From Zhihengliuella flava (GTDB lineage Bacteria; Actinomycetota; Actinomycetes; Actinomycetales; Micrococcaceae): DNA of 64,000 nucleotides. A model generated the notes under the pieces. The model made no database searches, was not told where the DNA came from, and worked only from the letters and a program-made list of their open reading frames with translations. Positions within the stretch are counted from its first letter, which is position 1. Each line of letters starts with the position of its first letter. Location of the stretch: positions 1,488,001 to 1,552,000 of the forward strand of contig NZ_JADOTZ010000001.1 of the NCBI RefSeq assembly GCF_015751895.1, written 5' to 3'. Of this stretch, positions 24,447-60,972 are shown in pieces. Made by a program: the position numbers and the translations under genes.

Positions 24447-25784
24447 TCAGCCGAGCCGCATCCATGCGTCGTTGCGCACACGGAACACCAGCGTGGCCGC
24501 CCGGGCGCATAAGTAGCCGACGCCGAAGGCCAGCCAGAGCGGAAGAATCGACGCGCCCGGCAGCTCGGCCCACCCCGCGACCGCCAACAGGGGCGCGTAG
24601 AGCACCAACGCGACGAGCCCGGCGAGCGCGAGGTAGCGGGCGTCGCCGGCGCCGATCAGCACGCCGTCGAGCACAAACACCAGCCCGCACACCGGCTGGG
24701 AGGCCGCGAGCACCCACAGGCCGATGCTCGCGGCGGCCGCCACGGCGTCGTCGGACGTGAACAGCCGCGGCAGCCAAGGGGCGCAGACGGCCAGCGCAGC
24801 GCCGGTGATGACCCCGAAACCCAGGCCCCAGCGGGTCATGGTGCGGGTCAGCTGGTGGGCCCGGTCGGCGCGGGAGGCGCCCAGTTCCTTGCCGATCAAC
24901 GCCTGCGCGGCGATCGCCAGCGCATCGAGCGCGAAGGCGAGGAACGTGAAGAGCGTGAACACCAACTGGTGCGCGGCCAGCGTGACCGCGCCCTGACTGG
25001 TCGCCACCCAGACCGTGGCGAGGATGGCCGCGCGCAGGCTGAGGGTCCGCAGCATGAGCCACGATCCCACCTGGGCCATGGCGACGACGCCGCGCGGGCT
25101 CGGCGCGAGCGGCACGCCGGCGGCCCGGGCCCGCGGAACCAACAGCACCAGATAGATCAGGGCCATGATCCACTGCACGATGGAGGTGCCGATCGCGCTA
25201 CCGGCCACGGAGAGACCGGCCCCGTAGACCAGAACGTAATTCAGCGCGATGTTGGCGCCAAAGCCGCCGGCCGCCACATACAGCGGCGTCTTCGTGTCCT
25301 GCAGCCCGCGCAGCACGCCCGTGGCGGCGAGGACCAGCAGCATGGCGGGCAGCCCCGGCATCGAGAAGCGCACGTAGTCGGTTCCGAACGCGGCAACCTC
25401 CGCCGTGCCGCCCATCGCGGCCACGAGGCCCGGGGCGGCGAACCAGCCGGCCACGGCCAGGACGAGGCCGAGCACCAGGGCGAGGGCGACGCCGTCGCGC
25501 CCGGCAGCCAGCGCCTCACCGAGGCGCCCCGCACCCAGGTGCCGGGCGACGGCGGGCGTGGTGGAGTACGCGAGGAAGATCAGCAGGCCCACGCCCGTGG
25601 TCACGATCGTGGTGCCGAGTCCGATGCCGGCGAGTTCGGCGACGCCCAGGTGACCGATGATGGCCGTATCCGCCGCGAGGAACAGCGGCTCGGCGATGAG
25701 GGCGCCCAGCGCGGGGACGGCCAGCGTCAGGATGGACCGGCCGATGCGGTGGTCAGCTGCCGGCTCGCGCTGCCGCACTACCAT
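24447..25784 (-). CDS. MATE-family efflux transporter (DinF-like)
   Basis: A 445-residue protein with twelve predicted helices in two MATE halves. It would export cationic drugs or metabolites in exchange for Na+ or H+. Family landmarks are VPALGALIAEPLFLAADTAIIGHLG at the start of helix 1 and GVLRGLQDTKTPL near the middle. It resembles the DinF branch common in Actinobacteria. It is divergent from pxpA and shares a 173-base intergenic region carrying the GntR-type palindrome. Confidence 0.87.
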   Translation of the reverse strand: MVVRQREPAADHRIGRSILTLAVPALGALIAEPLFLAADTAIIGHLGVAELAGIGLGTTIVTTGVGLLIFLAYSTTPAVARHLGAGRLGEALAAGRDGVALALVLGLVLAVAGWFAAPGLVAAMGGTAEVAAFGTDYVRFSMPGLPAMLLVLAATGVLRGLQDTKTPLYVAAGGFGANIALNYVLVYGAGLSVAGSAIGTSIVQWIMALIYLVLLVPRARAAGVPLAPSPRGVVAMAQVGSWLMLRTLSLRAAILATVWVATSQGAVTLAAHQLVFTLFTFLAFALDALAIAAQALIGKELGASRADRAHQLTRTMTRWGLGFGVITGAALAVCAPWLPRLFTSDDAVAAAASIGLWVLAASQPVCGLVFVLDGVLIGAGDARYLALAGLVALVLYAPLLAVAGWAELPGASILPLWLAFGVGYLCARAATLVFRVRNDAWMRLG

Positions 25785-25890: not shown

Positions 25891-25903
25891 ATTGTTGAAC
25901 AAT
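25891..25903. promoter_or_regulatory. GntR-type operator at the pxp promoter
   Basis: ATTGTTGAACAAT is a perfect 13-base palindrome around one central base. It fits the T-N-GT-N3-AC-N-A consensus of FadR-subfamily GntR regulators, one of which is encoded at the end of this operon. The same core TTGTTGAACAA occurs twice upstream of the NRAMP-like gene near 40430. Confidence 0.65.
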
Positions 25904-25957: not shown

Positions 25958-26716
25958 ATGCCGGTCATCGACCTGAATTCGGACGTCGGAGAATCGTTCG
26001 GCAACTGGTCCATGGGGGACGACGCCGCGATTTTCGAGTCCGTCTCCAGCGCCAACGTGGCCTGCGGCTTCCACGCCGGAGACCCCTCCACGATGGCCCA
26101 GACCGCCCGCTCCGCCGCGGCCGCCGGCGTCACTATCGGCGCGCACGTCGCGTACCGGGACCTGGCCGGGTTCGGCCGCCGATTCCTTGACTGCACCCCG
26201 ACCGAACTCGCGGACGACATCCTCTACCAGCTCGGCGCCCTGCAGGCGATGGCGGCGGCCGCCGGCAAGCGCATCCACTACGTTAAGCCGCACGGCGCGC
26301 TATACAACACCATCGTGACCCACGAGCCGCACGCGCAGGCCGTCGTTGACGCCGTCCGCGCCCTCGGCGGCGACCTGCCCATCCTCGGGCTGCCCGGCTC
26401 GGCCGTGCACGCCCGTGCCGCGGCCGCCGGGCTGCGCACGGTCACGGAGGCCTTCGCGGACCGGAATTACACCCCCGAGGGCACGCTGGTGTCGCGGCGG
26501 GAGCCGGAGGCCGTCATCCACGATCCGGAGGCGGTCACCGCCAACATGGTCCGCCTGGCCACGGAGGGCACCATCACGGCGATCGACGGCACCGTGATCC
26601 GCACAGACGCCGAGAGCATCTGCGTCCACTCGGACACCCCCGGCGCGGTCGCCATGGCCGCCGCCGTGCGCCGCGGGCTCGAGGAAGCGGGCGTGAACAT
26701 CCGGAGCTTCGCGTGA
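25958..26716 (+). CDS. pxpA: 5-oxoprolinase subunit A (LamB/YcsF family)
   Basis: Subunit A of the PxpABC 5-oxoprolinase, which uses ATP to open 5-oxoproline (pyroglutamate) to glutamate. The 252-residue TIM-barrel-like protein has the family hallmarks [28 protein letters not shown] and VKPHGALYN. It is the first gene of pxpA, the PxpB-PxpC-biotin carboxylase fusion and gntR. A GGAGG ribosome site precedes the ATG, and its TGA overlaps the GTG of the fusion gene by four bases. Confidence 0.93.
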
Positions 26717-29700
26717 TGTTTCCCAGCCTCCGCCGGTTTGGGCCGACCGCGCTCTTACTGGAGCTGACGGACCTCGACCAGGTCCTCGCCCTCGCCGCGC
26801 ACCTGCAGGCCCACCCGCTGCCCGGCGTCGTCGAGGCCGTGCCCGCGGCCCGCACCATCCTGCTGCGCTGCGCCTCGGCGCGGGACGCCGATGCCGCGGC
26901 CGAGCTCTGTGCCGCCGGGTTTGACGTGGCCGGGCTGGACGCCGCGCCGGAGACCGGCCGCACGGTGGAGATCGAGGTGGTGTACGACGCCGCCGACCTC
27001 GCCGACGTGGCCCGGCTCACCGGGCTCTCGGAGGACGGGGTGGTCAACGCGCACACGGGGTCCGTGTGGACGGGCGCCTTCGGTGGGTTTGCCCCGGGCT
27101 TCACGTACTTGGCCGGCGGCGACGCGCGCCTGAACGTGCCCCGGCGGGAGTCTCCCCGCACCGCCGTGCCCGCCGGGTCCGTGGCCTTGGCCGGCGAGTT
27201 CTCCGCCGTCTACCCCCGGACGAGCCCCGGCGGGTGGCAACTGATCGGTCGCACCGACGCCGCGCTGTGGGACCTGAACCGCGAGTCCCCGGCCCTGATC
27301 GCCCCGCTGGATACGGTCCGATTCACGGCCGTGCGCGAGCGCGTCACCGCGACCGAGCGTTCCGTTCCCGCCGAGCAGGCCGAACAGCCCCACAAGGCCG
27401 AACAGGCCGACGGCGGCAAGGAGAACCCCGCGACCAGCGGCCTGACGGTCCTCGACGCCGGCCTACAGTCGCTCCTCCAAGACGGGGGCCGGCCGGGCCA
27501 GTCAAACCTCGGCGTGCCCTCCTCCGGCGCCGCGGATGCCGTGTCGGCGCAGCTGGCCAATCGCCTCGTCGGCAACCCAACCGGCGAGGCCGTGGTGGAG
27601 ATCCTGCTGGCCACCGCTACCGTCCGCGCCGAGGGGGACCAGGTCTTGGCCCTCGCGGGGGCCGAGGCCCACGGCGTCATCACGCCGGCGCCACAGGACG
27701 AGCGCCGCCGCGAGCGCACCGTCGCCACCGGCCGCCCGTTCGCTTTGCTCGATGGGGAGACGCTGGCGCTCTCCCCCGCCGGCGAGGGACTACGCGCCTA
27801 CCTAGGGCTGCGCGGCGGCATCGACGCGGAGCCCACCCTCGGCAGCCGCGCCACGGACACGCTCTCCGGGCTGGGGCCCGCACCGCTGGCCGCCGGCACG
27901 CGGCTGGGGCGCCGCCTGCGCGGCGGACTCGGCCCGGTCTGGCCGGAGGCTCCCGCTCCGGACGCGGCACGGGACGACGACGGCGCCACCGTTGTGCGCG
28001 TCCACCCCGGCCCCCGCGACGACTGGTTTGACGACGGGCTGGCGGCCCTCACCGCCCACGCCTGGCGCATTGGCCAGGACTCGAACCGGGTCGGGATCCG
28101 CTTAGAGCTGCCCGATGCGGATGCAGAGCAGCACGCACCACGCCCGCTGCGCCGCAGCCGCGAGGGCGAGCTCGCAAGCGAAGGCATGGTGGCCGGGGCC
28201 CTGCAGGTCCCGCCCTCCGGCCTGCCCGTGCTCTTCGTCGCGGACCACCCCGTCACCGGCGGATATCCCGTGATCGCCACCGTAGTGCCCCAAGACCTGC
28301 CCCTGGCGGCCCAACTACCGCCGGGCGCCACGGTCCGCTTCGCCGTCGTGCCCCACGCGGCCGACTCCCCGACCCACACCACCGCCGCACCGGCCGCCAC
28401 GCCCCACGCCGCGGCCGCCCACCCCGAACCCGCCGGAGGTCATCGCATGAGCCCTGCACCCACACCGACGCACCAGCCGCAGCCGCTGCGCAAGGTCCTC
28501 ATCGCCAACCGCGGAGAGATTGCGGTGCGCATCGCCCGCGCTTGCGCGGACGCGTCCCTCGCGTCCGTGGCTGTGTACTCGGACCCGGATGCGGACGCGC
28601 TCCACGTGCGCGCCGCGGACGAGGCCTACCCGCTCGGCGGACGCACCAGCGCGGAAACCTACCTCGATCAGGAGAAGATCCTCGCCGTCGCCCGCGAGTC
28701 CGGCGCGGACGCCGTGCACCCCGGCTACGGATTCCTCTCCGAGAACGCGGAGTTTGCCGAGGCCGTCATCGCCGCCGGCCTCGCGTGGGTGGGCCCGGCC
28801 CCGCAGACCATCCGTGACCTAGGGGACAAGATCAAGGCCCGGGAGATCGCCGTCGCCGCCGGCGCCCCGCTGGTCCCCGGCAGCGATGGCCCCGTGGATT
28901 CGGCGGAGGCGGCCCGCGCCTTCGCCGAGGAGCACGGCCTACCGGTGATCATCAAGGCGGCCCACGGCGGCGGCGGGCGCGGCATGCGCATCGCCCGCCA
29001 ACTCGGCGAGGTCGAGGACGCCTTTGCCGCCGCGGTGCGCGAGGCGGAGGGGGCCTTTGGCCGCGGCGAGTGCTTTGTGGAGCGGTTCCTCGACACGCCG
29101 CGCCACGTGGAGGCCCAGGTGCTGGCGGACACCCACGGCAACGTCGTCGTGGTCGGCACCCGCGACTGCTCGCTGCAGCGCCGGAACCAGAAGCTGGTGG
29201 AGGAGGCGCCCGCGCCGTTCCTCACCGCGGACCAGCGCGCCCGGATTCACGACGCCGCCCGGCAGATCTGCCGCTCGGCCGGCTACGTCGGCGCCGGGAC
29301 CGTGGAGTTCATGGTGGCCCCGGACGGATTGATTTCCTTCCTCGAGGTCAACACCCGCTTGCAGGTGGAGCACCCCATCACGGAAGAGACCACGGGCGTG
29401 GATCTGGTGGCCGAGCAGCTGCGCATTGCCGCCGGCGAGCCGCTGAGCCTCACCGAGGATCCGGCCCCGCGGGGCCACGCCTTCGAGTTCCGCATCAACG
29501 CCGAGGATCCGGCGCGCGGCTTCCTGCCCACCCCGGGCGACGTGACCCGCTTCGAGGCCCCCACCGGCGCGGGGGTTCGCGTGGACACGGGCGTGCGCTC
29601 CGGATCCACGGTGCCGGACGTGTATGACTCCATGATGGCCAAGCTGATCGTTTCCGGGGCCACCCGTCAGCAAGCGCTGCGCCGGGCACGCCAGGCGCTG

Positions 29701-30228
29701 GCGGACTTCCGGATCGAGGGCGTGGCGACGGTGCTGCCGTTCCACCGCGCGGTGGTGCAGGAGGAGGCCTTCGCCGGCACGGAGGAGTTCGGCGTGTACA
29801 CCACGTGGATTGAGGACGAGTTCTCCGCCGCCCTGGCCCCCTCGGACGATGTGGCCTTGCCCGCCCGCTCCGGCGAGCGCGAATCCATCACCGTGGAAAT
29901 CGACGGCCGCGCCCACCAAGTCGGCGTGCCGGCGGACCTGCTCGCCGCGTTGCGCGCCGGCAGTGGCGCCGTCGCCACCGCCGACTCCGGGGAGGACGAC
30001 GGCGCCGCTGAGGCGAACGTGGTGACCTCGCCGGTCAATGGTGGCTTCGTGAAGTGGTCGGTCGACGACGGCGCGACAGTCTCTGCCGGAGACGCGGTGG
30101 CCGTTGTGGAGGCGATGAAAACGGAATCGCCGGTGTCCGCGCCGTGCGACGGCGTCTTCACGCGGGCCGACCTGCACCCGGGGGATCAGCTCAGCCGCGG
30201 GCAGGAGCTCGGCCGGATCGCGGGATAG
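26713..30228 (+). CDS. PxpB-PxpC-biotin carboxylase-BCCP fusion (5-oxoprolinase / biotin-dependent carboxylase)
   Basis: A 1171-residue four-part protein. Residues 1-215 are PxpB/KipI-like (GFAPGFTYL at 126-133, then [14 protein letters not shown]). Residues 243-545 are PxpC/KipA-like ([17 protein letters not shown]). A low-complexity Ala/His/Pro linker spans 546-592. Residues 594 to about 1035 are biotin carboxylase ([38 protein letters not shown]). Residues 1095-1171 are a biotin carrier domain with VEAMKTE (K1136). Urea carboxylase has the same domain types in another order. PxpB/PxpC work with PxpA on 5-oxoproline; the carboxylase role is unknown. An internal ATG (residue 579) has its own GGAGGT site, so the carboxylase part may also be made separately. 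Confidence 0.88.
28435..28449 (+). promoter_or_regulatory. internal ribosome site and ATG inside the fusion gene
   Basis: GGAGGT (28435-28440), six bases, ATG (28447-28449) in frame at residue 579, exactly at the join between the PxpC-like part and the biotin carboxylase. It may be a relic of an ancestral gene boundary or a working second start that yields a free BC-BCCP protein of 593 residues. Confidence 0.5.
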
Positions 30229-30237
30229 GTTGGTTCT

Positions 30238-30939
30238 ATGCCAACCTCTACCGCACCGCGCTTCACGTTCCCGGATCACGTCGCCCCGCACGCGCACTCG
30301 GGCCCGTGGGCGGCGGCCGCGCTGCGGTCCTCGATCGCCGATGGTCAACTGCGTCCGGGCACCAAGTTGTCCGAGCAGCAGTTGGCCGACGCGCTGGGGG
30401 TGTCCCGCAATACACTCCGGGAAGCCTTCACTATCCTCGCGGCGGAACTGATCGTCACCCGCGTGCCTAATCGGGGCGTCTTTGTCACCTCCCCCGGCGC
30501 CGAGCAGGTCCGTGAGATCTACCGGGTGCGGCGGCTGTTGGAACCGGCCGCGGTGCTCTGGGGCACGGCGATTGACGTTCCCGCTCTCGAGGAGATTGTG
30601 GCGGCGGCCCAAGCCGCACGGGCCGCGGCGGATGTGGACGCCATGGCGCAGGCCAACCAGCAGTTTCACGAGCAGCTCATTCGCGGCACGGAAAGCACGC
30701 AAGTGCAGCGCCTCATGCGTCAGGTGCTGGCCCAGATGCGCCTCGTGTTCCACGCTATGGCGCAGGCCCCGGATTTCCATTCGCACTATGTGGAGGCCAA
30801 CGCCCAGCTCGTTGAGCTGCTGCGGGGGGATCGCCGGCCGGAGGCCGCCGAGCTGCTGCGCGGCTACCTCGATCAGGCGGAGGCCGAACTCTTGGCCCAC
30901 CTCGCGGCCGATGCCGCGGCCGTCGCGCAGGCGGACTAG
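30238..30939 (+). CDS. GntR/FadR-family regulator, likely of 5-oxoproline genes
   Basis: A 233-residue regulator: a winged-helix domain (LRPGTKLSEQQLADALGVSR, then NTLREAF) and a C-terminal FCD ligand domain with the expected histidines (FHEQLI and HAMAQAPDFHSHY). It starts nine bases after the stop of the PxpBC fusion and closes the operon. FadR-type regulators bind T-N-GT-N3-AC-N-A palindromes; matching sites lie at 25891 and near 40427 and 40451. The effector is plausibly 5-oxoproline or a related acid, which is inference. Confidence 0.82.
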   Translation: MPTSTAPRFTFPDHVAPHAHSGPWAAAALRSSIADGQLRPGTKLSEQQLADALGVSRNTLREAFTILAAELIVTRVPNRGVFVTSPGAEQVREIYRVRRLLEPAAVLWGTAIDVPALEEIVAAAQAARAAADVDAMAQANQQFHEQLIRGTESTQVQRLMRQVLAQMRLVFHAMAQAPDFHSHYVEANAQLVELLRGDRRPEAAELLRGYLDQAEAELLAHLAADAAAVAQAD

Positions 30940-37101: not shown

Positions 37102-37167
37102 AGACCAAATTTGTGCCAGAGGCCTCCGGGCCGCCTTTGGCATGCCCTTTTCACCCTGAAGGAACAC

Positions 37168-39027
37168 ATGCAGATCAGAAAAACGCTCGGCGGCGCCCTG
37201 ACCGCCGTCCTCGCCATGGGCTCACTCGCCGCCCTCGCCACCCCCAGCTACGCCGCGCCGACGTATGACATCGAGCAGTGCATGCCCAGCAGCGGCCTGG
37301 GGACCGTGGCCTCCAACGGCACCGTCACGCCGCTACCGAAGGACAACAACGTCAGCGTCTACGCTGGCGGAAACTTCAGCCGCATCGAGGGCGCCGAGCT
37401 CGAGGGCCAGCTGGTGGTCGACGGCGATGCCGACCTGGGCAGCGGCGCGTACTCGATGGGCCGCGTCGGCGTCGGCTCGGGCATGATGCCCACGGCCGGC
37501 TCCGATGTGTTGCGCATCGGCGGGGACCTGTCCTTCCCGGGGCCGGGCACCGTTGAGGTCTCTCTGATCGACGAGCAGGACACCCTGCTCGAGTCCCACG
37601 TCGCCGTCGGCGGCGCGGTCACCGGCGCCGGGACCATCGCCGTGCCGGGCGCGGGAAGCTCCATCGACGAGGGCCTGGGCCGGGAGGCGGCACTCGGCGA
37701 GCCGAGCTTCGCCGATTGGCCGAGCAACGACTTCGCCGTGTTGACCTCGTTCATCGACCAGAACGTCAATCACGTCGACAACGTAGCCGGCACCGCCACC
37801 AGCGAGTTCGGCACGCTCAGCCTCAACGGAGATGCGTCCGCGGCCCGCCACACGTTCACCGTAGATGCCGCAGACTTGAACGGCTTCTCGCTGCAGGTCG
37901 GCGAGAACATTGACCCGACCGAGCCGATCATCATCACCGTCGAAGATGCTGCCGCGACCCTGAGCATTCAGGGACTCTTCGATTCCACAATGCAGGCGAT
38001 CGACCCAACTTCGGCCCGTTTTGGCCAGTTGGCTTCGCAGATCCTGTGGGTGTTCCCCAACGCCACGGACGTTGAACTCGGCGGCGCGCAGTTGCCGGGT
38101 AGCGTCGTCGTTCCGACGGCGGGCTCCACTACCAGCATGACGGCTGCGGGCACCAACGGTCGCGTATGGGTGGCCGGCGATTTGATCCAGAACCGCGCCG
38201 GTTCTGAATTCCACAACTTCCCGTTCATCGGCAACCCGGACTCGACGTGCAATGAGCCGCCGACGTCCCCGGTGGTGACCACCGAGGTCGCACCCGTGAC
38301 CCCCGACGTCACCCAAGCCCAGTGCATCGACGGCGAAGCCACCGAACCCACCATCACCCTCCCCACCACCGAGGGCATCACCTACACCATCACCGGCACC
38401 GTCGAAGCCGGCAACACCGTCACCATCACCGCCACCAGCGATGAAAACACCACCCTCACCGAGGCCGACGGCTGGACCCTGAACAACGACGGCACCGCCA
38501 CCCTCGAAATCACCCTCGAGAACCCCGACTGCACCGAGCCCACCACCGAGGTCGCACCCGTGACCCCCGACGTCACCCAAGCCCAGTGCATCGACGGCGA
38601 AGCCACCGAACCCACCATCACCCTCCCCACCACCGAGGGCATCACCTACACCATCACCGGCACCGTCGAAGCCGGCAACACCGTCACCATCACCGCCACC
38701 AGCGATGAAAACACCACCCTCACCGAGGCCGACGGCTGGACCCTGAACAACGACGGCACCGCCACCCTCGAAATCACCCTCGAGAACCCCGACTGCACCG
38801 ACGAGGCGCTGCCGACGGAGACCCCGGATCCCACGCCCACCCCGGTCGAGCCCACGGATCCGGACACCCCGGATGCTCAGGTTGATGAGGACGGGCAGGC
38901 GGGCGGCTCGTCGGATTCGGACGAGCTAGCCAAGACGGGTGTGACGCAGGCACCCATGATCGCCCTCGGCCTCGCCTTGCTGCTGGCCGGTGGCGTCCTG
39001 CTGGCCGTCCGCCGCAAGCGGGCCTAG
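37168..39027 (+). CDS. sortase-anchored surface protein, choice-of-anchor A type, with tandem repeats
   Basis: A 619-residue secreted protein. A signal peptide (about 30 residues, ending near SYAAP) is followed by a choice-of-anchor A domain (NVSVYAGGNFSRIEGAELEG, later ILWVFPNATDVELGG and VWVAGDLIQNRAGS). Two 88-residue repeats start with VAPVTPDVTQAQC, each with two cysteines. Then come a proline/threonine-rich wall segment and LAKTG, a hydrophobic helix and RRKRA. LAKTG fits the LAXTG signal of class E sortases. The repeats are identical at DNA level. A role in adhesion or wall architecture is likely, but the ligand is unknown. Confidence 0.85.
   Translation: MQIRKTLGGALTAVLAMGSLAALATPSYAAPTYDIEQCMPSSGLGTVASNGTVTPLPKDNNVSVYAGGNFSRIEGAELEGQLVVDGDADLGSGAYSMGRVGVGSGMMPTAGSDVLRIGGDLSFPGPGTVEVSLIDEQDTLLESHVAVGGAVTGAGTIAVPGAGSSIDEGLGREAALGEPSFADWPSNDFAVLTSFIDQNVNHVDNVAGTATSEFGTLSLNGDASAARHTFTVDAADLNGFSLQVGENIDPTEPIIITVEDAAATLSIQGLFDSTMQAIDPTSARFGQLASQILWVFPNATDVELGGAQLPGSVVVPTAGSTTSMTAAGTNGRVWVAGDLIQNRAGSEFHNFPFIGNPDSTCNEPPTSPVVTTEVAPVTPDVTQAQCIDGEATEPTITLPTTEGITYTITGTVEAGNTVTITATSDENTTLTEADGWTLNNDGTATLEITLENPDCTEPTTEVAPVTPDVTQAQCIDGEATEPTITLPTTEGITYTITGTVEAGNTVTITATSDENTTLTEADGWTLNNDGTATLEITLENPDCTDEALPTETPDPTPTPVEPTDPDTPDAQVDEDGQAGGSSDSDELAKTGVTQAPMIALGLALLLAGGVLLAVRRKRA
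38281..38801 (+). repeat. two tandem 264-base repeats with no visible difference
   Basis: Copy 1 begins at 38281 and copy 2 at 38545 (period 264 bases, 88 codons). Reading base by base I find no difference until 38802, where the wall-spanning segment begins. Lack of even silent changes points to recent duplication or ongoing gene conversion, and the copy number probably varies between strains. Confidence 0.9.
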
Positions 39028-39116: not shown

Positions 39117-40334
39117 CTAGGCCCAGAGCGCGGCCAGGCCGGAGAGCGAGTTCCACCCGAGGAAGAGCGTCAGGAGCCACGTGATCGCTCCCAGTACCAG
39201 CAGCCACATGGGGTACGCGTAGCCCTGCAGCAGGTCGCGGCGGCGCCACGCCACCCAGAGAAGGACGCCGAAGCCGACCGGCAGGATGAGGCCGTTGAAG
39301 GCGCCAGCAAAAATAAGCAGCGTTTGCGGCGCCTGGCCGAGGAGCAGGAAGGCGGCCAAACACACGGCGATGAAGCCGATGGTGAGCCAATTGCGCGTGC
39401 GTACTGCCGTCGTCGTGCGCGTGATGAAGGAGACCGACGTGTAGGCGGCGCCGATGACGGAGGTGAGCGCGGCCGCCCAGAGGATGACGCCGAAGAGCCG
39501 CATGCCGATCTCGCCGGCGGCTGCGCCGAAGGCCTCGGCCGCCATGTTGTCGCTGGTCAGCGCAACGCCACCGGCAACGACGCCGAAGATGGCCAGGAAG
39601 AGCAGCACGCGCATGACGCCGGTGACGATGATGCTGAGGACCGAGCTGCGGGTGACTTCCTTGACGTGCTCGACGCCGGACGTGCCGGAATCCAACATCC
39701 GGTGGGCGCCGGCGTAGGTGATGTAGCCGCCGACTGTGCCGCCGATCAGCGTGGTGATGGTGAGGAAATCGACCTCGGCGGGCATCACGGTGTTCTTCAG
39801 CGCCTCACCGACCGGGGGTGCGGCGACGATGGCCACGTACAGCATCAGCAAAATCATCATGGCACCGAGCAGCACGACGATGCGGTCGAGCGCCATCCCG
39901 GCGCGCTTGGACACGAAGATCAGAATCGCGATGACGGCGGAGATGGCGCCGCCGATCTGTGGATCCCATCCCAGCATGGCGTTCATGCCGAGGCTCGCGC
40001 CGGCGATATTGCCGATGTTGAAGACCATGCCGCCGATGAAGACCAGCGCGGCGAGGAACCAGCCGATGCCGGGCAGGACCTTGTTGCCCAGCTCTTGGGC
40101 GCGCATCCCGGAGACGCCGATGACGCGCCAGACATTCAGCTGGACGGCAATGTCGACCAGGATCGAGACGACGATCGCGAAGGCGAAGGCGGCGCCGAGC
40201 TGCACCGTAAACACGGTGGTTTGGGTGATGAAGCCGGGCCCGATGGCGCTGGTAGCCATCAGGAACATGGCCCCTAGCAGCGCTGTACGGCGGGCCGAGG
40301 CGCTGAGTTGGGGCTTCTCGGGGGCGGCGGACAT
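39117..40334 (-). CDS. NRAMP-like transporter lacking the metal-binding motif
   Basis: A 405-residue protein with eleven or so helices of the NRAMP/LeuT fold. True NRAMP metal carriers have DPGN in helix 1; here the same place reads GPGF (residues 32-35). The helix 6 metal motif is replaced by GGYITYAGAHRM. It is therefore unlikely to carry Mn or Fe. A related NRAMP-like gene (ycsG) stands beside the 5-oxoprolinase genes in Bacillus subtilis. Here the gene is 10 kb from pxpA but has two copies of the same TTGTTGAACAA operator upstream, so I infer uptake of 5-oxoproline or a similar acid. Confidence 0.8.
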   Translation of the reverse strand: MSAAPEKPQLSASARRTALLGAMFLMATSAIGPGFITQTTVFTVQLGAAFAFAIVVSILVDIAVQLNVWRVIGVSGMRAQELGNKVLPGIGWFLAALVFIGGMVFNIGNIAGASLGMNAMLGWDPQIGGAISAVIAILIFVSKRAGMALDRIVVLLGAMMILLMLYVAIVAAPPVGEALKNTVMPAEVDFLTITTLIGGTVGGYITYAGAHRMLDSGTSGVEHVKEVTRSSVLSIIVTGVMRVLLFLAIFGVVAGGVALTSDNMAAEAFGAAAGEIGMRLFGVILWAAALTSVIGAAYTSVSFITRTTTAVRTRNWLTIGFIAVCLAAFLLLGQAPQTLLIFAGAFNGLILPVGFGVLLWVAWRRRDLLQGYAYPMWLLVLGAITWLLTLFLGWNSLSGLAALWA

Positions 40335-40405: not shown

Positions 40406-40434
40406 GTATTGAGAGGACTCTACTGGTTGTTCAA
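40406..40434 (-). promoter_or_regulatory. candidate promoter of the NRAMP-like gene
   Basis: On the minus strand TTGAAC (40434-40429), 17-base spacer, CAATAC (40411-40406). As at pxpA, the -35 TTGAAC is the right half of the GntR-type palindrome, so the two promoters are built alike. The -10 is a weak match. Confidence 0.35.
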
Positions 40435-40461
40435 CAATCGGCGCAATAATTTGTTGAACAA
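40427..40461. promoter_or_regulatory. paired GntR-type operators upstream of the NRAMP-like gene
   Basis: TTGTTCAACAA at 40427-40437 and TTGTTGAACAA at 40451-40461, centres 24 bases apart. Both repeat the core of the palindrome at 25891 upstream of pxpA. One overlaps the predicted -35 and the other lies upstream. Confidence 0.6.
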
Positions 40462-45798: not shown

Positions 45799-47181
45799 CT
45801 AGGCCTCCCCGCGGCGGAGCAGGCGCCCGCGCGGCGTCTGGAAGTCCACTTGGCCGCCGCGCACCCACGTGCCACTGACCTCACCGGCCAGCTCACGCCC
45901 GTCGTACGGAGAGATCTGGTTGCGGTGGTGCAGGCGCGTGACATCGATGGTCTGCGTGGCCTCGGGCGAGAACACGGCGAAGTCGGCGTCCGCTCCCACC
46001 TCGATCTTGCCTTTGCGCTCGAGCCCGGCGAACTGGGCCGGGTGGGAGGACATCCACTCGAGAACGCGCTCCAGGGTGATCCCGCGCTTCTTCGCTTCGG
46101 TCCAGATCAGGGACAGGCCCAACTGCAGGGAGGCCACGCCGCCCCACGCGGTGCCGAAGTCACCGGTCTGCACGTGCTTGAGGTCCACGGTGGACGGGGA
46201 GTGGTCGGAGACGATGAAGTCGATCGTCCCGTCCTCCAGGCCCTGCCACAGCAGCTCCCGGTTGGCCTCCTCACGAATCGGCGGGCAGCACTTGAACGCG
46301 GTGCCTCCAGCCGGGATCTCCTCCGCGAGCAGCGTCAGGTAGTGCGGGCAGGTCTCCACCGTCAGGCGGACGCCGTCGCGCTTGGCCTCCGCGATCATCG
46401 GCAGCGCATCGGAGGAGGAGAGGTGCAGGATGTGGGCGCGAGCCCCGGTGCGGCGTGCCCGCTCAATCACCTCGGCGATCGCGATGTTCTCCGCCGAGCG
46501 CGGGCGCGAGGCGAGGAAACGGTCGTACTCACGGCCCTCGGCGGGCGGGGCGCCGTCGATCGTGGAGGCGTCCTCAGCGTGAACAATCATCATCGAGCCG
46601 ATCTCCGCCAGCTCGGCCAGATCCCGTTCCATCTCATCGGGTGACAGCGGAGGGAACTCGTCCACCCCGGAGTGCAGCAGGAAGCACTTGAAGCCGAAGA
46701 CGCCCTCCTCATGCAGGCGGCGTAGCTCCGCGGTGTTGCCCGGAACGGCCCCGCCCCAGAAGCCCACGTCGATGTGGGCCTGAGGTCCGGCCACCGCCCG
46801 CTTCTCCTCCAGCGCCGGCACGTCCACGGTGGGCGGAATGGAGTTCAACGGCATGTCGATCAGCGTGGTGACGCCACCGGCCGCGGCGGCTCGGGTGGCC
46901 GAATCGAAGCCCTCCCACTCGGTGCGTCCCGGCTCGTTCACGTGCACGTGAGTGTCCACGAGGCCGGGAATCAGGACCTGCTCGGCCCCCACATCGAGCG
47001 TCTCGGCCCCGGGCAGCTGGGCGCCGGCGGGTTCGACGGCGGCAAAGCGCCCGTCGCGGATGCCCACCTCACCGGCCACGGTGCCGTGCGGTGTCACGAT
47101 CCTCTCGGCCCGAATCACCAGATCAAACATGGTCTGGCCCGCTGCGGCGGGCGGCGCTGCGGCGCCGGTCTCGATGCTCAA
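45799..47181 (-). CDS. allB: allantoinase
   Basis: Hydrolyses the ring of allantoin to allantoate. The 460-residue amidohydrolase has the metal ligands in [10 protein letters not shown], the carboxylated lysine in [10 protein letters not shown] and the aspartate in DHSPST. I chose the TTG at 47181 because AAAGGAG lies eight bases before it; the ATG at 47130 would give a shorter N-terminus but has no ribosome site. It is the last gene of hyi-glxR-gcl-glxK-allB. The 95 bases before it contain TGATCTATCATGCGA, which resembles the AllR boxes. Confidence 0.92.
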
Positions 47182-47276
47182 GGCTGTCTCCTTTGTTTCG
47201 CGGCCCCGTGGGGCCTGTGATCTATCATGCGAGTTCGCGCGAGCGCGCTCAATCTGAACCGGCTCCGCGGGACGGA

Positions 47277-48437
47277 TTAGGGGTGCAATGCGGGCAGGGG
47301 CTCGCGGTCACCGGCGGCGATCTGCGCGCCGATCCTCCGGCCGAGCTCCCGCAGCAGCGGGGCCGGATTGGCCAAGCACGCGGCGACGTCCGGCTCCACG
47401 TCCGTGAGGGCCAGCGCAGCGGTGATACCGGCCGCCGTCAGTGCCTGCGCGTCGAGATCGCGCCGCCCGCACACGGCATAGACGGGCAGACCCCGCGCGG
47501 CCGCGGCGGCCGCGACGCCAGCGGGGGCCTTGCCCTCCAGCGTCTGGGCGTCGAGGCGCCCCTCGCCGGTGATGACGACGTCGGCCGCGGCGAGCGCCGC
47601 GTCGAACCCGGTCAGCTCCATGACCACCTCGATCCCGCGGCGACGCGTGGCGGACAAGAGCGCCAGGGCGGCGAAACCGACGCCGCCCGCACTGCCCGCC
47701 CCCGGAGCCTTAGCTGCGGCCGCCGGCTCCGGTCCGGCCACCCGCTCCAACACGTCGACCAGGCGCGCCAGCCCGGATTCGAGCACGCGCACATCCTCGG
47801 GGCTCGCGCCCTTCTGAGGACCGAACACGGCGGCCGCGCCGCGCGCGCCGAGCAGCGGGTTATCCACGTCGCTGGCGAGGACGACCTCCGTCCCCTCCAA
47901 CCGCGGGTCGAGCCCGGAGACGTCAACGCACGCTAAATCGTTGAGCGCGGCGCCGCCGTCGGGCAGTACACGGCCACGGGCGTCCAGCAGGCGTACGCCG
48001 AGGGCGCTCAGCAGACCCGCTCCGCCGTCCGTACAAGCGCTGCCGCCGACGCCGAGAATGATGCGGCGGGCGCCGGCATCGAGCGCAGCGCCGATGAGCT
48101 CGCCCGTCCCCCGGCTGGTCGCCGCCCCGGCGTCCCGCGCCTTGGCGGGCACCAGGTCCAGCCCCGAGGCGGCGGCCAGCTCCACGACGGCGGTATGTCC
48201 CGACACCGCGAAGCTGGCCTCCACCGTGGCGGAAAGTGGCCCGGTGACGGCGCGACTCACCGCGCGGTATCCGGCGCTGAGCGCAGCCGCCACGGTTCCC
48301 TCACCGCCGTCGGCCACCGGAACAGCGGTGGTCCGCGCCTGCGGCAGGCTCTCCTGCAGGCCGGAGGCCACCGCGGCGGCGACGTCGGCCGCGGCGAGGG
48401 TGCCCTTGAACTTGTCCGGGGCGATGAGCACGTCCAC
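47277..48437 (-). CDS. glxK: glycerate kinase (GarK/GlxK family)
   Basis: Phosphorylates D-glycerate (usually to 2-phosphoglycerate) and so ends the glyoxylate-to-glycolysis route. The 386-residue protein has the type I glycerate kinase N-terminus [16 protein letters not shown] and the glycine-rich [13 protein letters not shown] near residue 130. It follows gcl after eight bases and precedes allB. Confidence 0.92.
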
Positions 48438-48445
48438 GGCAGGCC

Positions 48446-50260
48446 TCAGACGCCCGCGCCGACGGGTTCGGCCGTCGCATCCTGGGCCGCGGCCAGCGGG
48501 ACCAACGCGGTCGGGGCGTCCTCGGCCGAACCGGCCAATTCCTCGAACTCGTTGACGGCGTCCAAGCTGGCGCCCATGGAAATGTTGGTGACGCGCTCCA
48601 GAATGACCTCAACCACCACGGGCACCTGATGCTCCTCCGCCAGTCGGCCAGCCTCCGCGAAGCCCTCGGCCAGCCGGGCCGGGTCCTCAACGCGGACGGC
48701 CTTGCAGCCTAGGCCCTCGGCAACCTTCACGTGATCGACGCCGTAGCCATTGGTCTCCGGGGAGTTGATGTTCTCGAACGCCAGAGACACGTGGTAATCC
48801 ATCTCAAACGCGCGCTGGGACTGGCGGATGAGCCCCAGGTAGGAGTTGTTGACCACCACGTGGATGTACGGCAGCTTGAACTGCGCGCCGACGGCCAGCT
48901 CCTCGATCATGAACTGGAAATCGTAGTCACCAGACAAGGCGACCACGCGCTGGTTTGGCTTGCCGCGGACCACGCCCAGGGCGGCGGGTCCGGTCCACCC
49001 CAAGGGTCCGGCCTGGCCGGCGTTGATCCACTGACGCGGGCCAAACACGTGCAGCATCTGCGCCCCGGCGATCTGGGACAGGCCGATGGTGGAGACATAC
49101 GTGGTGTCCTGGCCGAAGGCGGCGTTCATCTCTTGGTAGACGCGCTGCGGCTTGATCGGGATGTTCTCGAAGTTCGTCTTACGGTGCCCGGTGCCCTTGC
49201 GGGCCGTGCACTCGTCCGCCCACGCGCCGTACTGCGGCAGCGTCCCGTCGGCCTTGCGCTGCTTGGCGGCGGCCAGCAGTTGCTCCAGGGCGGCCCCGGC
49301 ATCGGAAACGATCCCCAGATCCGGGCTGAAGACGCGCCCGATCTGCGTCGGCTCAATGTCTACGTGCACAAAGGTGCGGCCCCGCCGGTAGGTCTCCAAA
49401 TCGCCGGTATGGCGGTTGGCCCAGCGGTTGCCGATCCCGAGGACAAAGTCAGAGGCCAGGAACGTGTCATTGCCATACTTGGTGTGCGTCTGAATGCCCA
49501 CCATGCCGGCCTGCAGGCGGTGATCGTCGGCGATGGCGCCCCATCCCATGAGGGTCGGGGAGACGGGGAGGTTCAGCTCTTCGGCCAGCTCCACCAGCAG
49601 CTCGGACGCGTTGGCATTGATCACGCCGCCGCCAGCGATCAGCAGCGGGCGTTTCGCCTGGACCAGCAGGTCGAGGATCTTCTCCGCCTGGGCGCGCGTG
49701 GCCTGCGGGCGCAGGGGCGGCAGCGGCTCGTAGGCGTCGATGTCGAACTCGATCTCGGCCAACTGCACGTTCAGCGGCAGGTCCAGCAGCACCGGCCCTG
49801 GCCGGGAGGAGCGCATGACCTGGAAGGCCTTCGCGAACGTGCCGGGGACCAACCCTGGTTCCAGGATGGTGGAGGCGAACTTCGTCACGGGCTTGGCGAT
49901 CGACTCGATGTCCACCGCTTGGAAGTCCTCCTTGTGCAGCACGGAGGTGGGCGCCTGCCCGGTGATGCACAGCATGGGGATCGAGTCGGCGATCGCCGCG
50001 TAGAGCCCGGTGATCATGTCCGTCCCGGCCGGCCCGGACGTGCCGATGCAGACGCCGATCCCGCCGGTGGCCCGGGAGTAGCCGTCCGCTGCGTGGGAGG
50101 CACCCTCGACGTGACGGTGCAGGGTGTGGCGGATGCCGCCGTGGGCCTTCATGGCCGAATACAGAGGGTTGATCGCGGCGCCAGGCAGCCCGAAGGCCTC
50201 GGTGGCGCCCTCCTTTTCCAGAATCAGGGTGATGGCGTCTACTGCGCGCATGCGGGTCAT
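48446..50260 (-). CDS. gcl: glyoxylate carboligase (tartronate-semialdehyde synthase)
   Basis: Joins two glyoxylates to tartronate semialdehyde and CO2, using thiamine diphosphate and FAD. The 604-residue protein shows the diagnostic change of this enzyme: V51 in RHVEGA, where nearly all other ThDP enzymes have the catalytic glutamate. The ThDP motif is [15 protein letters not shown]...[16 protein letters not shown] precedes the ATG. It lies between glxR and glycerate kinase in the glyoxylate operon. Confidence 0.95.
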
Positions 50261-50297
50261 GGTGTGCTCCTTGCTACGGGGTGGACCGGCCGGCCCA

Positions 50298-51218
50298 TCA
50301 GGCGGTGGTCGGCGTCGGTTCGGTGCTGGCGTCTGCCGCGAGGGTGCCGCCGCTGCGCTGCACGCCGCGGAACAGGCCGGAGTGGTCCAGTCCGCCGTCG
50401 CCCGTGGCGACGGTGGAGGCCACCAGTTGCGCCACTAGTGACCCGAGGGGCAGGACGACGCCGGCCTCGCGGGCCGCGGAGGTCACGATTCCCATGTCCT
50501 TGTGATGCAGGGCCAAGCGGAATCCCGGAGTAAAGTCTCGGTCCAGAATCTTCTGCCCCTTCTGGTCGAGGACCTTGGAACCGGCGAGCCCGCCGCCGAG
50601 GACGGACAGGGCGGCGGCGGTGTCCACGCCGTACGCCTCGAGGAAAGCCACGCCCTCGGAGAGGGCCTGGATGTTCGCGGCCACGATCAGCTGGTTGGCC
50701 GCTTTCACGGTCTGCCCGGAGCCGGCTGGGCCCACGTGGACGATCGTCTTGCCGACGCCGGCGAAGACCTCGGCGGCGGCGTCAAAGTCCTCCCGCTCGC
50801 CGCCGACCATAATGGACAACACGCCGTCCACGGCCCCGGCCTCGCCACCAGACACCGGGGCGTCGAGCGGCCGCAGGCCCGCGGCGCGGGCCTCTTCGGC
50901 CAAGCGCACGGCCACGTCGGGGCGGATCGTGGAGTTGTCGATCCACAGCGCACCCTCCTTGGCGTTCGCAAAGACCCCGTTCTCCCCCGTGACCACGGCC
51001 TCCACGTCTGGGGAGTCCGGGACCATGGTGATGACGACGTCGGCGTCGGCGACGGCCTCACGGATGTTCGCGGCGGCGCGTCCGCCGGCTTGCTCCAGCT
51101 CGGCGGCCTTGCCCGGGCTGCGGTTGTAGCCGGTGACGGCGAAGCCCGCGGAGACCAGGTTCTTGGCCATGGGCAGCCCCATGATGCCGAGTCCGATGAA
51201 GGCGATGTTCTTGCTCAT
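50298..51218 (-). CDS. glxR: 2-hydroxy-3-oxopropionate (tartronate semialdehyde) reductase
   Basis: Reduces tartronate semialdehyde from Gcl to D-glycerate. The 306-residue beta-hydroxyacid dehydrogenase has the nucleotide loop [10 protein letters not shown] (residues 9-18), the substrate motif DAPVSGG (119-125) and the catalytic lysine K172 in [11 protein letters not shown]. It is the middle gene of hyi-glxR-gcl. Confidence 0.94.
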
Positions 51219-51248
51219 GTGATGCTCCTAAAGAAATCGAGGGGTAGC

Positions 51249-52040
51249 TCAGGCGGGCTGGCGGATGAGCCAGCCGAAGGCGTCGTCGTGGGCGGCCTTG
51301 TACTCCAGGCCAATGGGGCCGGAGTAGCCCAGCTCGCGGCTGCGGGTCACCCACTCCCCCAGCGGTAGCTCGCCGGTGCCGGGTGCGCCGCGGCCCGGGT
51401 TATCGGCGATCTGAATGTGACCAAACTGGTGAGCATGCTGCTCAATCACGGCGGCCACGTCTTCACCGTTGACGGCCAGGTGGTAGAAGTCCGCGAGCAG
51501 TTGGACGTTGTCCACCCCGGCCGCGCGCGTGGCGGAGATGATCTCCAGCGCGTGCTGCGCCGTCTTGACCGGGTAGGCCTCGGTGCCGGAGACCGGCTCG
51601 AGAAGGACCGTGCCGCCGATGCGGCCGACGCCGCGAGCCGCGGCGACGAGGTTGTCCAGCCCGAGCGCGTCCTGAGCGGCGGGGTCCTGACCGTCCTGAC
51701 GGTTTCCGTACAGCGCGTTAAAGTGGCGGCACCCCGTGGCCTCGCCGATGCCGGCGACCACGTCGACGTTGTCCCGGAACTCAACGTCGCGGCCGATCCA
51801 GGACACGAGTCCCCGGTCCCCGCCCGGCATGTCTCCAGCCAGGAAGTTCAGCCCGGTCAGCCGCACCCCGGCATCGTCCAGGGCTCCGATGAAGCGGTCG
51901 ACGTCGACGTCGGCGGGGACCGCCTCCGCGAAGGGCCACCAAAACTCCACCTGGTCGAATCCCGCGGCCTTCGCGGCGGCGGGGCGCTCCAAGAGCGGAA
52001 GCTCCGTCAGCAGAATCGAGCAGTTCACGGTGTAGGACAT
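51249..52040 (-). CDS. hyi: hydroxypyruvate isomerase
   Basis: Interconverts hydroxypyruvate and tartronate semialdehyde. The 263-residue TIM-barrel protein begins YTVNCSILLTELPLLERP and has the acidic/histidine ligands of the Hyi/xylose isomerase-like family (LLEPVSG, LLADFYHLAVNGED, HIQIADNPGRGAPGTGE). The ATG at 52040 has AAGGAGG upstream; the frame extends to 52070 but would then enter the operator. It is the first gene of the glyoxylate operon, divergent from the NCS1 gene. Confidence 0.92.
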   Translation of the reverse strand: MSYTVNCSILLTELPLLERPAAAKAAGFDQVEFWWPFAEAVPADVDVDRFIGALDDAGVRLTGLNFLAGDMPGGDRGLVSWIGRDVEFRDNVDVVAGIGEATGCRHFNALYGNRQDGQDPAAQDALGLDNLVAAARGVGRIGGTVLLEPVSGTEAYPVKTAQHALEIISATRAAGVDNVQLLADFYHLAVNGEDVAAVIEQHAHQFGHIQIADNPGRGAPGTGELPLGEWVTRSRELGYSGPIGLEYKAAHDDAFGWLIRQPA

Positions 52041-52059
52041 CGCACCCTCCTTGAGAGAT

Positions 52060-52074
52060 TTCCATATCATGGAA
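52060..52074. promoter_or_regulatory. palindromic box in the hyi leader (IclR/AllR candidate)
   Basis: TTCCAT-ATC-ATGGAA is a perfect palindrome with a 3-base centre, between the hyi promoter and its ribosome site. Related sequences occur at the pucI, malic enzyme and peroxiredoxin promoters. Confidence 0.55.
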
Positions 52075-52095
52075 GCAAGTTATTGCTTTATGAGA

Positions 52096-52125
52096 ACTTT
52101 AGAAGTGGTCCGCATCACCTGTCAA
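52096..52125 (-). promoter_or_regulatory. hyi-glxR-gcl-glxK-allB promoter
   Basis: On the minus strand TTGACA (52125-52120), 18-base spacer, TAAAGT (52101-52096). The spacer holds GGTGATGCGG, which also occurs in the spacer of the divergent pucI promoter. Confidence 0.6.
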
Positions 52126-52157
52126 GCACTTTGCCTTCTCGCATGACGACCGAAACT

Positions 52158-52172
52158 TGTCGCGATGCGAAA
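52158..52172. promoter_or_regulatory. AllR-like box upstream of the pucI promoter
   Basis: TGTCGCGATGCGAAA shares the right half ATGCGAAA with the box at 52233 and lies just upstream of the -35 of pucI. Confidence 0.35.
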
Positions 52173-52177
52173 AACTC

Positions 52178-52206
52178 TTGACACCTCCTCTGTGATGCGG
52201 ATTACT
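52178..52206 (+). promoter_or_regulatory. pucI promoter
   Basis: TTGACA (52178-52183), 17-base spacer with TGTGATGCGG, then ATTACT (52201-52206). The box TTCCATAATGCGAAA follows downstream. Confidence 0.5.
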
Positions 52207-52232
52207 TAACACCGCCACATCTGGAATCTTCA

Positions 52233-52247
52233 TTCCATAATGCGAAA
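52233..52247. promoter_or_regulatory. AllR-like box downstream of the pucI promoter
   Basis: TTCCATAATGCGAAA: half-sites TTCCAT and ATGCGAAA around one base. It is the best match to the box in the malic enzyme promoter (minus strand TTCCATAATACAGAT). Confidence 0.5.
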
Positions 52248-52287
52248 ACTTTCCTGCCGCATCGCGGCCTGATCAGAAGGGCTTGCT

Positions 52288-53859
52288 ATGACTGCCCAGA
52301 ACCACACGATGCCCCCGGCCGCTGGCAGCGACGCCACCGGCATGGCATCGACCGCGGACCCCGCCGGCGTCGACGCCGAGAGCCCCACCGGCGCCCCACG
52401 GGAGAACAACCCGCTGGGACTCAGCCCCGGCCTGTACAACCAAGACTTGGCCCCCACCCGCCGGCGCGGCCGGACGTGGAACGCCTACAGCATCTTCACG
52501 CTGTGGGCTAATGACGTGCACAGTCTGGGCAACTACGGGTTCGCCATTGGGCTCTTCGCCCTAGGACTCGGCGGCTGGCAAATCCTGCTGGCCCTCGGGC
52601 TCGGCGGCGCCCTCCTGTTCTTGCTGCTCAATCTCTCCGGGTTCATGGGGGAGAAAACGGGCGTCCCGTTCCCCGTCATGAGCCGCATCTCCTTCGGCAT
52701 TCACGGAGCGCAGATCCCCGCGCTCATCCGCGGCGCCGTCGCCATCGCCTGGTTCGGCATCCAGACCTACCTCGCCTCCGTGGTGCTGCGCATCATGATC
52801 GTCGCCGTCGTCCCTGCGGCCGCGCGGTTCGATGAGAGCAACTACTGGGGGCTCTCCGCCCTCGGCTGGATGTCCTTCCTCGTCCTGTGGGCCCTGCAGC
52901 TGGTGATTGTGAGCTACGGGATGGAGATGATCCGCAAGTACGAGGCGTTTGCCGGACCGGTCATCTTGGTCACCATGGCCGCGCTAGCGATCTGGATGTT
53001 CACCGAGGCCCAGGGATCCATCGCCTGGTCCACGCCAGAGTCCAAGACCGGCCTCGACATGTGGCTGGCGATCTTCGGCGGCGCCACCCTGTGGGTGTCG
53101 ATCTACGGAACCTTCGTCCTGAACTTCTGTGATTTCACCCGTGGCGCCAGCTCCAAGGGCGCGATCGTTCGCGGCAACTTCTACGGCATCCCCATCAATA
53201 TGCTGCTCTTCGGCGCCATCGTGGTGGTCTTGGCTGGCGCACAGTTCAAGATCAACGGGACCGTCATCGAGTCGCCTGCGGACATCGTGCAGACCGTCCC
53301 GAACACCTTCCTCCTGGTCTTGGCCTGCCTGGCGTTGCTCATCCTGACCATCGCCGTGAACCTCATGGCCAACTTCGTAGCCCCGATCTACGCGCTGTCC
53401 AACCTCTTCCCCAAGACGTTGAACTTCCGCCGCGCGGGCCTCGTCTCCGGTCTCTTGGGCCTGCTGATCCTGCCGTGGAATCTCTACAACTCCCCGATCG
53501 TCATTACGTACTTCCTCGGCGGTCTGGGCGCGCTGCTCGGCCCTTTGTTCGGCATCATCATGGCCGACTACTGGCTGCTGCGCCGGGCGCGCGTCAACGT
53601 CCCGGACCTCTACCGTGACCGCCCGCAGACCGAGTACTACTACCGCCGCGGCGTGAACCCCCGCGCCGTGGCCGCGCTGATCCCCACGGCCCTGACGGCC
53701 ATGGTGCTCGCGTTCGTGCCCGCCTTCGCCGCCCTCTCCGCGTTCTCTTGGATCATCGGCTCCGTGCTCGGCGCGGTCGTTTACCTCTCCATCGCGGACC
53801 GGCGCACCCCCATCACCGACGTCTCCGGCGAGCCCATCGCCGTCGCCAGCACCCACTAA
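52288..53859 (+). CDS. pucI: NCS1-family nucleobase/allantoin permease
   Basis: A 523-residue transporter with twelve predicted helices. The helix 1 region TWNAYSIFTLWANDVHSLGN and GGWQILLAL are typical of NCS1 carriers of allantoin, hydantoins or purines. Its place between hyi and the racemase gene favours allantoin (PucI type), but purine transport is not excluded. It shares the operator region with hyi and is followed nine bases later by the racemase-family gene. Confidence 0.85.
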   Translation: MTAQNHTMPPAAGSDATGMASTADPAGVDAESPTGAPRENNPLGLSPGLYNQDLAPTRRRGRTWNAYSIFTLWANDVHSLGNYGFAIGLFALGLGGWQILLALGLGGALLFLLLNLSGFMGEKTGVPFPVMSRISFGIHGAQIPALIRGAVAIAWFGIQTYLASVVLRIMIVAVVPAAARFDESNYWGLSALGWMSFLVLWALQLVIVSYGMEMIRKYEAFAGPVILVTMAALAIWMFTEAQGSIAWSTPESKTGLDMWLAIFGGATLWVSIYGTFVLNFCDFTRGASSKGAIVRGNFYGIPINMLLFGAIVVVLAGAQFKINGTVIESPADIVQTVPNTFLLVLACLALLILTIAVNLMANFVAPIYALSNLFPKTLNFRRAGLVSGLLGLLILPWNLYNSPIVITYFLGGLGALLGPLFGIIMADYWLLRRARVNVPDLYRDRPQTEYYYRRGVNPRAVAALIPTALTAMVLAFVPAFAALSAFSWIIGSVLGAVVYLSIADRRTPITDVSGEPIAVASTH

Positions 53860-53867
53860 GGAGTCCC

Positions 53868-54599: not shown

Positions 54600-54618
54600 A
54601 CCGCGGCAAGAAACACGA

Positions 54619-54657
54619 GGAGGGCCCGTGACCGAATGATTCGGTCACGGGCCCTCC
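54619..54657. terminator. bidirectional terminator
   Basis: An 18-pair perfect stem (arms 54619-54636 and 54640-54657) with a TGA loop lies between the convergent racemase-like and allE genes. Confidence 0.85.
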
Positions 54658-54676
54658 CGCTGCGTCGCCGGCCCTC

Positions 54677-58429: not shown

Positions 58430-58457
58430 AATCGGTGCTCCTTCGGCGTCGGTTCGG

Positions 58458-59867: not shown

Positions 59868-59933
59868 GGTCCTACCTCCTCATCTCGGCGGCGGCGCCGC
59901 ACGGGCGGCCGCTCCACCGTAGTGACTCGTTTG

Positions 59934-59970
59934 TTTCCGTATAGTGGATATTATGATCTGTATTATGGAA
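59934..59970. promoter_or_regulatory. AllR-like boxes between malic enzyme and iclR
   Basis: TTTCCGTATAGTGGA (59934-59948) and ATCTGTATTATGGAA (59956-59970). The second fills the spacer of the malic enzyme promoter and the first flanks its -10, as expected for an IclR repressor. Confidence 0.5.
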
Positions 59971-59976
59971 TTTCAA
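59948..59976 (-). promoter_or_regulatory. malic enzyme operon promoter
   Basis: On the minus strand TTGAAA (59976-59971), exact 17-base spacer TTCCATAATACAGATCA, TAATAT (59953-59948). A strong consensus match with the regulator box inside the spacer. Confidence 0.65.
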
Positions 59977-60100
59977 GGGTTACCGCCAAAGATTCACTCT
60001 CAGTATTCCGGAGGGCGGAAAAACTGGGTCTCGATGCGATAGCCTGACCACGGGCTGATCCGCCCTATACACCGTCCGCGACCCCCTCGCGAGGAGCCCC

Positions 60101-60959: not shown

Positions 60960-60972
60960 CTTCATGCCGCCG

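Follow-up and report, generated by a model that had tools for sequence, protein, structure and literature searches.

The gene at 39117-40334 of the 64,000-nucleotide stretch of Zhihengliuella flava DNA analysed here (the window) raises the question of whether its product, an NRAMP-type protein, imports a divalent metal or 5-oxoproline, the cyclised form of glutamate. The initial annotation had favoured a 5-oxoproline carrier and had warned against automatic annotation as a metal transporter; database records do carry the label "NRAMP family divalent metal transporter", which we consider misleading. The protein belongs to the Pfam Nramp family (PF01566; 73.6 bits, E 1.9e-20, curated cut-off 29.8) and falls far short of the NCBIfam Nramp equivalog (20.2 vs. 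a cut-off of 50). An AlphaFold2 model generated from 54 homologs (mean pLDDT 87, pTM 0.85) was all-helical, with helix 1 broken at G32-P33 and helix 6 after residue 198, as expected. Searching the solved structures by phmmer and with a profile retrieved no NRAMP matches and, therefore, no solved relative is close enough by sequence. Based on the Pfam match and the model, the protein is predicted to adopt an NRAMP/LeuT-type fold. Features of the locus are compiled in Table 1. Tail to tail with the transporter gene lies a gene (37111-39027, + strand) for a secreted surface protein, in which a repeat of about 75 residues occurs in two near-identical copies and the C-terminus carries a LAKTG-type anchor. 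Elsewhere in the window, positions 45799-62625 hold a purine/allantoin and glyoxylate cluster with genes for an amidohydrolase, a glycerate kinase, a TPP enzyme, a tartronate semialdehyde reductase, a hydroxypyruvate isomerase-like protein, an NCS1 permease, a ureidoglycine aminohydrolase, a DUF6986 protein (its gene flanked by those for the aminohydrolase and malate synthase), malate synthase, an IclR regulator, and a xanthine permease.

Table 1. Genes and operator sites of the pxp locus in the window.
Feature	Coordinates	Strand	Basis
pxpA, 5-oxoprolinase subunit A (LamB/YcsF)	25958..26716	+	PF03746 336 bits; NCBIfam NF003814 362.8 vs. cut-off 226
1171-aa fusion PxpB-PxpC-biotin carboxylase-biotin carrier	26713..30228	+	Pfam domain order; acceptor site EAMKT
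pxpR-type GntR/FCD repressor gene	30238..30939	+	Pfam GntR and FCD; BLASTP
pxpT-type gene, 405-aa NRAMP-type (LeuT-like) transporter	39117..40334	-	ORF; Pfam Nramp; C. glutamicum PxpT identity; AlphaFold2 model
Operator before pxpA	25892..25902	+	full 13-mer ATTGTTGAACAAT at 25891-25903
Operator O2, TTGTTGAACAA on - strand	40427..40437	-	between inferred -35 (TTGCGC) and -10 (TAGAGT) of pxpT; footprint of 37 distinct promoters
Operator O1, TTGTTCAACAA on - strand	40451..40461	-	24 bp from O2, upstream of inferred -35

In order to assess the residues on which metal transport depends, the protein was aligned with Escherichia coli MntH, a member of the same Pfam family with 17% identity to it, and the TM1 and TM6 motif regions of both proteins could be aligned. 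TM1 carries IGPGF where MntH has IDPGN; in TM6, GGTVGGYITYAG replaces GATIMPHVIYLH, with GGTVGGY at the place of the MPH motif; and TM3 reads FNIGNIAG in the window protein and TDLAEFIG, with the acid pair, in MntH. Thus, the window protein retains neither the two ligands of helix 1, nor the methionine and histidine of helix 6, nor the acid pair of the proton route. This confirmed the initial description of GPGF in place of DPGN in helix 1 and of a replaced helix 6 motif. The claim that metal transport is improbable is likewise supported by the lost metal and proton residues, and it keeps that grade in view of the manganese reports on YcsG/MntG and MumT considered below. Conservation of GPGF, which had been proposed as a check, was complete in every ortholog examined: it was found in 44/44 orthologs from the host family and, together with TM6 GG(T/S)(V/I)GGY, in 80/80 named actinobacterial loci, these being the best-scoring among the matches listed, with near relatives over-represented. 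Homologs with GPGF or a GPGF-type motif and the same TM6 were also found in Klebsiella, Pararhizobium, Bartonella, Paracoccus, Proteus, Moraxella, Deinococcus, Bacillus, Lactiplantibacillus, Fusobacterium, and Ilyobacter, and the motifs are likewise fixed in plasmid copies from four phyla besides actinobacteria. As far as sequences can tell, the replacement in the GPGF clade is not drift. Residues S29, Q38, T39, D61, Q65, N67, R70, N106, N109, Y204, T206, H211, R212, and R242 are invariant in 54/54 sequences and would be candidates for the substrate site.

Among characterised proteins, the nearest homolog is PxpT of Corynebacterium glutamicum. The genome of this organism was pinpointed by the published PxpR site plus a 17-base flank from the primer list (PMC13274462), a combination present in one of 242 Corynebacterium genomes. 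The ORF adjoining that site holds the MADNKN start and FDLLSS end required by the published primers, and it was therefore identified as cg1142, encoding PxpT. The window protein is 62-63% identical to it over about 400 residues, with GPGF in both. In a maximum-likelihood tree, to be read with its very long outgroup branches in mind, the GPGF proteins formed a single clade (100/99), to which neither MntH nor other NRAMP-like proteins belonged, and within it C. glutamicum PxpT was sister (98/90) to a Micrococcaceae group including the window protein; identity to the latter is 37-92% within the GPGF clade and 17-29% outside it. On these comparisons, the window gene is an ortholog of pxpT, the name used for it hereafter. 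Both proteins share GPGF and GGTVGGYITYAGAHR, and both genes have a PxpR operator in the promoter and a tie to pxpABC and a GntR repressor gene. The arrangement differs: in C. glutamicum, pxpTABC form one operon divergent from pxpR, with a single operator and separate pxpB and pxpC genes, whereas in the window pxpT lies 8 kb from the operon, there are two operators, pxpR stands at the operon end, and pxpBC is fused to biotin carboxylase and carrier domains. Deletion of pxpT in C. glutamicum abolished growth on 5-oxoproline, which was restored by complementation (PMC13274462). In the same work, pxpT was found to be under control of PxpR, whose site, containing ATTGTTCAACAAT, was proven by mutation and deletion; PxpR bound 5-oxoproline (KD 0.73 uM), but not glutamate, glutamine, proline, or aspartate. 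Its authors leave room for metal transport by PxpT (PMC13274462), and no direct measurement of 5-oxoproline uptake by any clade member was found in the literature. With the transporter, the repressor, and the site already published (May 2026), the 5-oxoproline idea is no longer new.

The pxp operon of the window spans 25958-30939. The Pfam domains of its fusion protein follow in the order CT_C_D, CT_A_B, Biotin_carb_N, CPSase_L_D2, Biotin_carb_C, and Biotin_lipoyl; the PxpB and PxpC domains are present, with NCBIfam scores of 134.9 (cut-off 145.55) and 148.2 (cut-off 500), fused to the biotin carboxylase and carrier. The characterised PxpABC enzymes of B. subtilis and C. glutamicum have no biotin carboxylase. 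The fusion suggests, from its domains, a biotin-dependent form of the enzyme, which would act on 5-oxoproline too; since biotin carboxylase is absent from those proven enzymes, its exact substrate might differ. A biotin-carboxylase module was found near pxpT in 51/80 named loci among the matches listed, and also in proteobacterial plasmid operons. The last gene of the operon codes for a protein that shares 37% identity with C. glutamicum PxpR across 205 aa (BLASTP), the HTH region being the most conserved. Divergent from pxpA is a gene for a MATE-family exporter (24447-25784, - strand), so that the operator at 25892 falls between the two.

An operator common to pxpT and the pxp operon had been postulated in the initial annotation and proved to be real. 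At the promoters, the PxpR site (agATTGTTCAACAATct) is represented by three sites with the core TTGTTSAACAA, one of them the full 13-mer. They are the only ones in the whole 2.9-Mb genome (0.08 expected from base composition, zero-order), and all lie at the two promoters: one 55 bp before pxpA, and two 93 and 117 bp upstream of the pxpT start. A reversed control pattern gave no matches in the whole-genome search. With up to two mismatches allowed, the 64-kb window contains 12 matches vs. 2.35 expected. The core is that of the mutationally proven C. glutamicum PxpR site. An operator was found at 38/43 host-family orthologs and within 300 bp upstream of pxpT in 70/80 named loci among the matches listed, the remaining 1.53 Mb of which holds 45 more sites, mostly at pxpA; close operator pairs have the 24-bp spacing in 45/53 cases. 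A comparison of 37 distinct homologous promoters gave the conserved footprint aTTGTTnAACAA-n-ctcTTGc-nnn-GATTGTTcAACAACCTGTAnnGT, that is, O1, TTGc, O2, and TGTAnnGT. Its elements may be interpreted as operator 1, a -35 box, a spacer containing operator 2, and a -10 box, the putative boxes of the window being 18 bp apart. These boxes were taken from the cross-species footprint; a promoter scan at pxpT did not find a sigma-70 match on the right strand. Ten genomes have pxpT and pxpA on separate contigs or 250 kb or more from each other, and in these neither gene showed an operator, even when one mismatch was allowed, whereas in two genomes where only contig ends separate the genes (G048 and G082) it was present at both. 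Therefore, the operator link is not universal, but applies to genes lying about 10 kb apart.

The genes are also linked by position. The distance of 10 kb initially given between pxpT and the oxoprolinase genes was roughly right, there being 8.2 kb from the operon end (30939) to the gene and about 14 kb from promoter to promoter. Among 120 host-family genomes, pxpA is present in all 61 that have pxpT and in 48 of the 59 that lack it (Fisher p 2.4e-4), and the distance between both genes is at most 49 kb in 48/61, typically 5-12 kb. Other NRAMP-like types sampled in the host family have neighbours unrelated to oxoprolinase. In 68/80 named loci among the matches listed, pxpT has pxpA or pxpBC no more than 10 kb away. 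Plasmid-borne pxpT of Proteobacteria, Bacilli, and Deinococcus adjoins pxpA or shares its operon, and these copies are usually labelled "NRAMP family divalent metal transporter"; the Ilyobacter homolog is an exception, with no pxp neighbours. The initial annotation also placed an NRAMP-like gene next to the 5-oxoprolinase genes of B. subtilis, and the literature bears this out (PMC13274462, PMC10448178).

Several further occurrences were recorded. Nearly identical pxpT homologs are found on 93 Klebsiella and several Enterobacter/Citrobacter plasmid records, and in one Enterobacteriaceae plasmid that was read (L137) pxpT heads an operon with pxpA, a hydro-lyase gene, pxpBC, and biotin carboxylase. 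On Haloarcula marismortui plasmid pNG700 (L145, 2959-7143), a different NRAMP-like protein with GPGT in TM1 (24% identity) is encoded directly 5' of genes for hydantoinase/oxoprolinase A and B, an unrelated type. This hints at more than one recruitment of NRAMP-fold proteins to lactam uptake. An actinobacterial pxpT (73% identity), accompanied by the operator and pxpA, is also present on a contig titled Vibrio cholerae strain 35D (L104), most likely through mislabelling or contamination of the assembly.

The window protein could instead be an NRAMP importer of Mn2+ or another divalent metal, supplying oxoprolinase or general metabolism, and its Pfam Nramp match would fit this. Overexpression of B. 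subtilis ycsG raised cell Mn, and the protein was renamed MntG (PMC10448178); it has since been placed in the "G-motif 3" NRAMP-related group and called a hypothesised Mn importer (PMC12873925). YcsG is 50% identical to C. glutamicum PxpT (PMC13274462), and its gene, part of a pxp operon, is of the kind seen in the window; it differs in being a reported Mn importer. The likeness is drawn here from the published description, and GPGF is present in a homolog from Bacillus badius whose gene belongs to a ycsG-like cluster. Deletion of mumT in Acinetobacter baumannii lowered cell Mn (PMC5050338). The mumTLUHC operon (transporter, L, U, "allophanate hydrolase", and biotin-carboxylase protein) matches in gene order plasmids of Klebsiella, Pararhizobium, and Paracoccus, on which pxpT is followed by genes for PxpA, hydro-lyase, PxpBC, and biotin carboxylase. 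Proteus mirabilis, whose locus encodes a protein with GPGF and 54% identity to that of the window, is counted among the species with a mum operon (PMC5050338). Judging by gene order and the P. mirabilis locus, MumT is a probable ortholog of PxpT, from which it differs in being a reported Mn importer in a urea operon. In addition, the NRAMP-related EleNRMT carries Mg2+ without the canonical motif (PMC12873925), and therefore loss of that motif alone does not rule out a metal. Against a metal stand the clade-wide exchange of both the metal-site residues and the TM3 acid pair for other, invariant residues, the company of oxoprolinase genes and of the operator of a 5-oxoproline-sensing repressor, the requirement of pxpT for growth of C. 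glutamicum on 5-oxoproline and its rescue by complementation (PMC13274462), and the presence in the genome of two ABC-type ZnuA-family metal-binding proteins. The only other NRAMP-like protein of this genome (G000:C1:899406-900437; L055, L177) has GAAD in TM1, and therefore a canonical DPGN MntH was not found there. Given the EleNRMT precedent and the conflict in the literature, including the genetic evidence on Mn for YcsG/MntG and MumT, metal transport is graded as improbable and no lower.

Another option is that the protein imports a related lactam or amide, such as another cyclic amide or urea, as substrate of PxpA and the biotin-carboxylase form of the enzyme. PxpBC travels with biotin carboxylase and carrier in the window, in the named loci counted above among the matches listed, and in the proteobacterial plasmid operons, and the mum operon of similar gene order is tied to urea use (PMC5050338). 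However, clusters with biotin carboxylase and those without it, including that of C. glutamicum, have the same transporter motifs and operator, and C. glutamicum PxpR binds 5-oxoproline and none of the four amino acids assayed (PMC13274462). This leaves a related substrate unlikely. The operator likeness itself could be due to chance or to another regulon, the core being a short palindrome that is missing from distant, unlinked pxpT genes; the confinement of the three sites of the 2.9-Mb genome to these two promoters, with position and pair spacing conserved across genera and a core shared with a proven PxpR site (PMC13274462), makes this extremely improbable. The most convincing reading is that the product of 39117-40334 is a 5-oxo-L-proline importer and no metal carrier, co-regulated with the pxp operon by the PxpR-type repressor. 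The initial proposal of a 5-oxoproline carrier is, on the sequence evidence, very probably right, and agrees with the need for PxpT in C. glutamicum and the common operator core.

According to this import reading, in the absence of substrate the GntR repressor would occupy the two TTGTTSAACAA sites overlapping the pxpT core promoter and the one before pxpA, and on operator 2 it would block RNA polymerase. Cytoplasmic 5-oxoproline, made inside or entering the cell, would free the repressor from DNA; with this release, pxpT and the operon of pxpA and pxpBC-biotin carboxylase would turn on together despite lying apart. The pxpT product would itself act as a secondary transporter bringing in more 5-oxoproline, which PxpA and the PxpBC fusion would open to glutamate at the expense of ATP. 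Orthology, loss of the metal and proton residues, operators, repressor homology, and gene clusters come from the present sequence analysis, and gene requirement, repression, site, and 5-oxoproline binding by PxpR from the work of others in C. glutamicum.

Beyond the published PxpT work, the present analysis adds that the altered motifs are fixed throughout the clade, that the regulon is split and includes a promoter with a conserved double operator, and that a biotin-carboxylase form of the enzyme (PxpB-PxpC fusion) stands under the same operator. The clade is publicly annotated as metal transporters, and two published claims of Mn import concern one member and one probable member of it; sequence, gene linkage, and the shared operator across many genera all indicate an organic substrate. 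The balance tilts slightly toward the whole GPGF clade, including YcsG/MntG and MumT, importing an organic compound, be it 5-oxoproline or a related lactam, in which case the Mn phenotypes would be indirect and many metal-transporter annotations wrong. If true, the NRAMP fold would serve an amino-acid-like acid.
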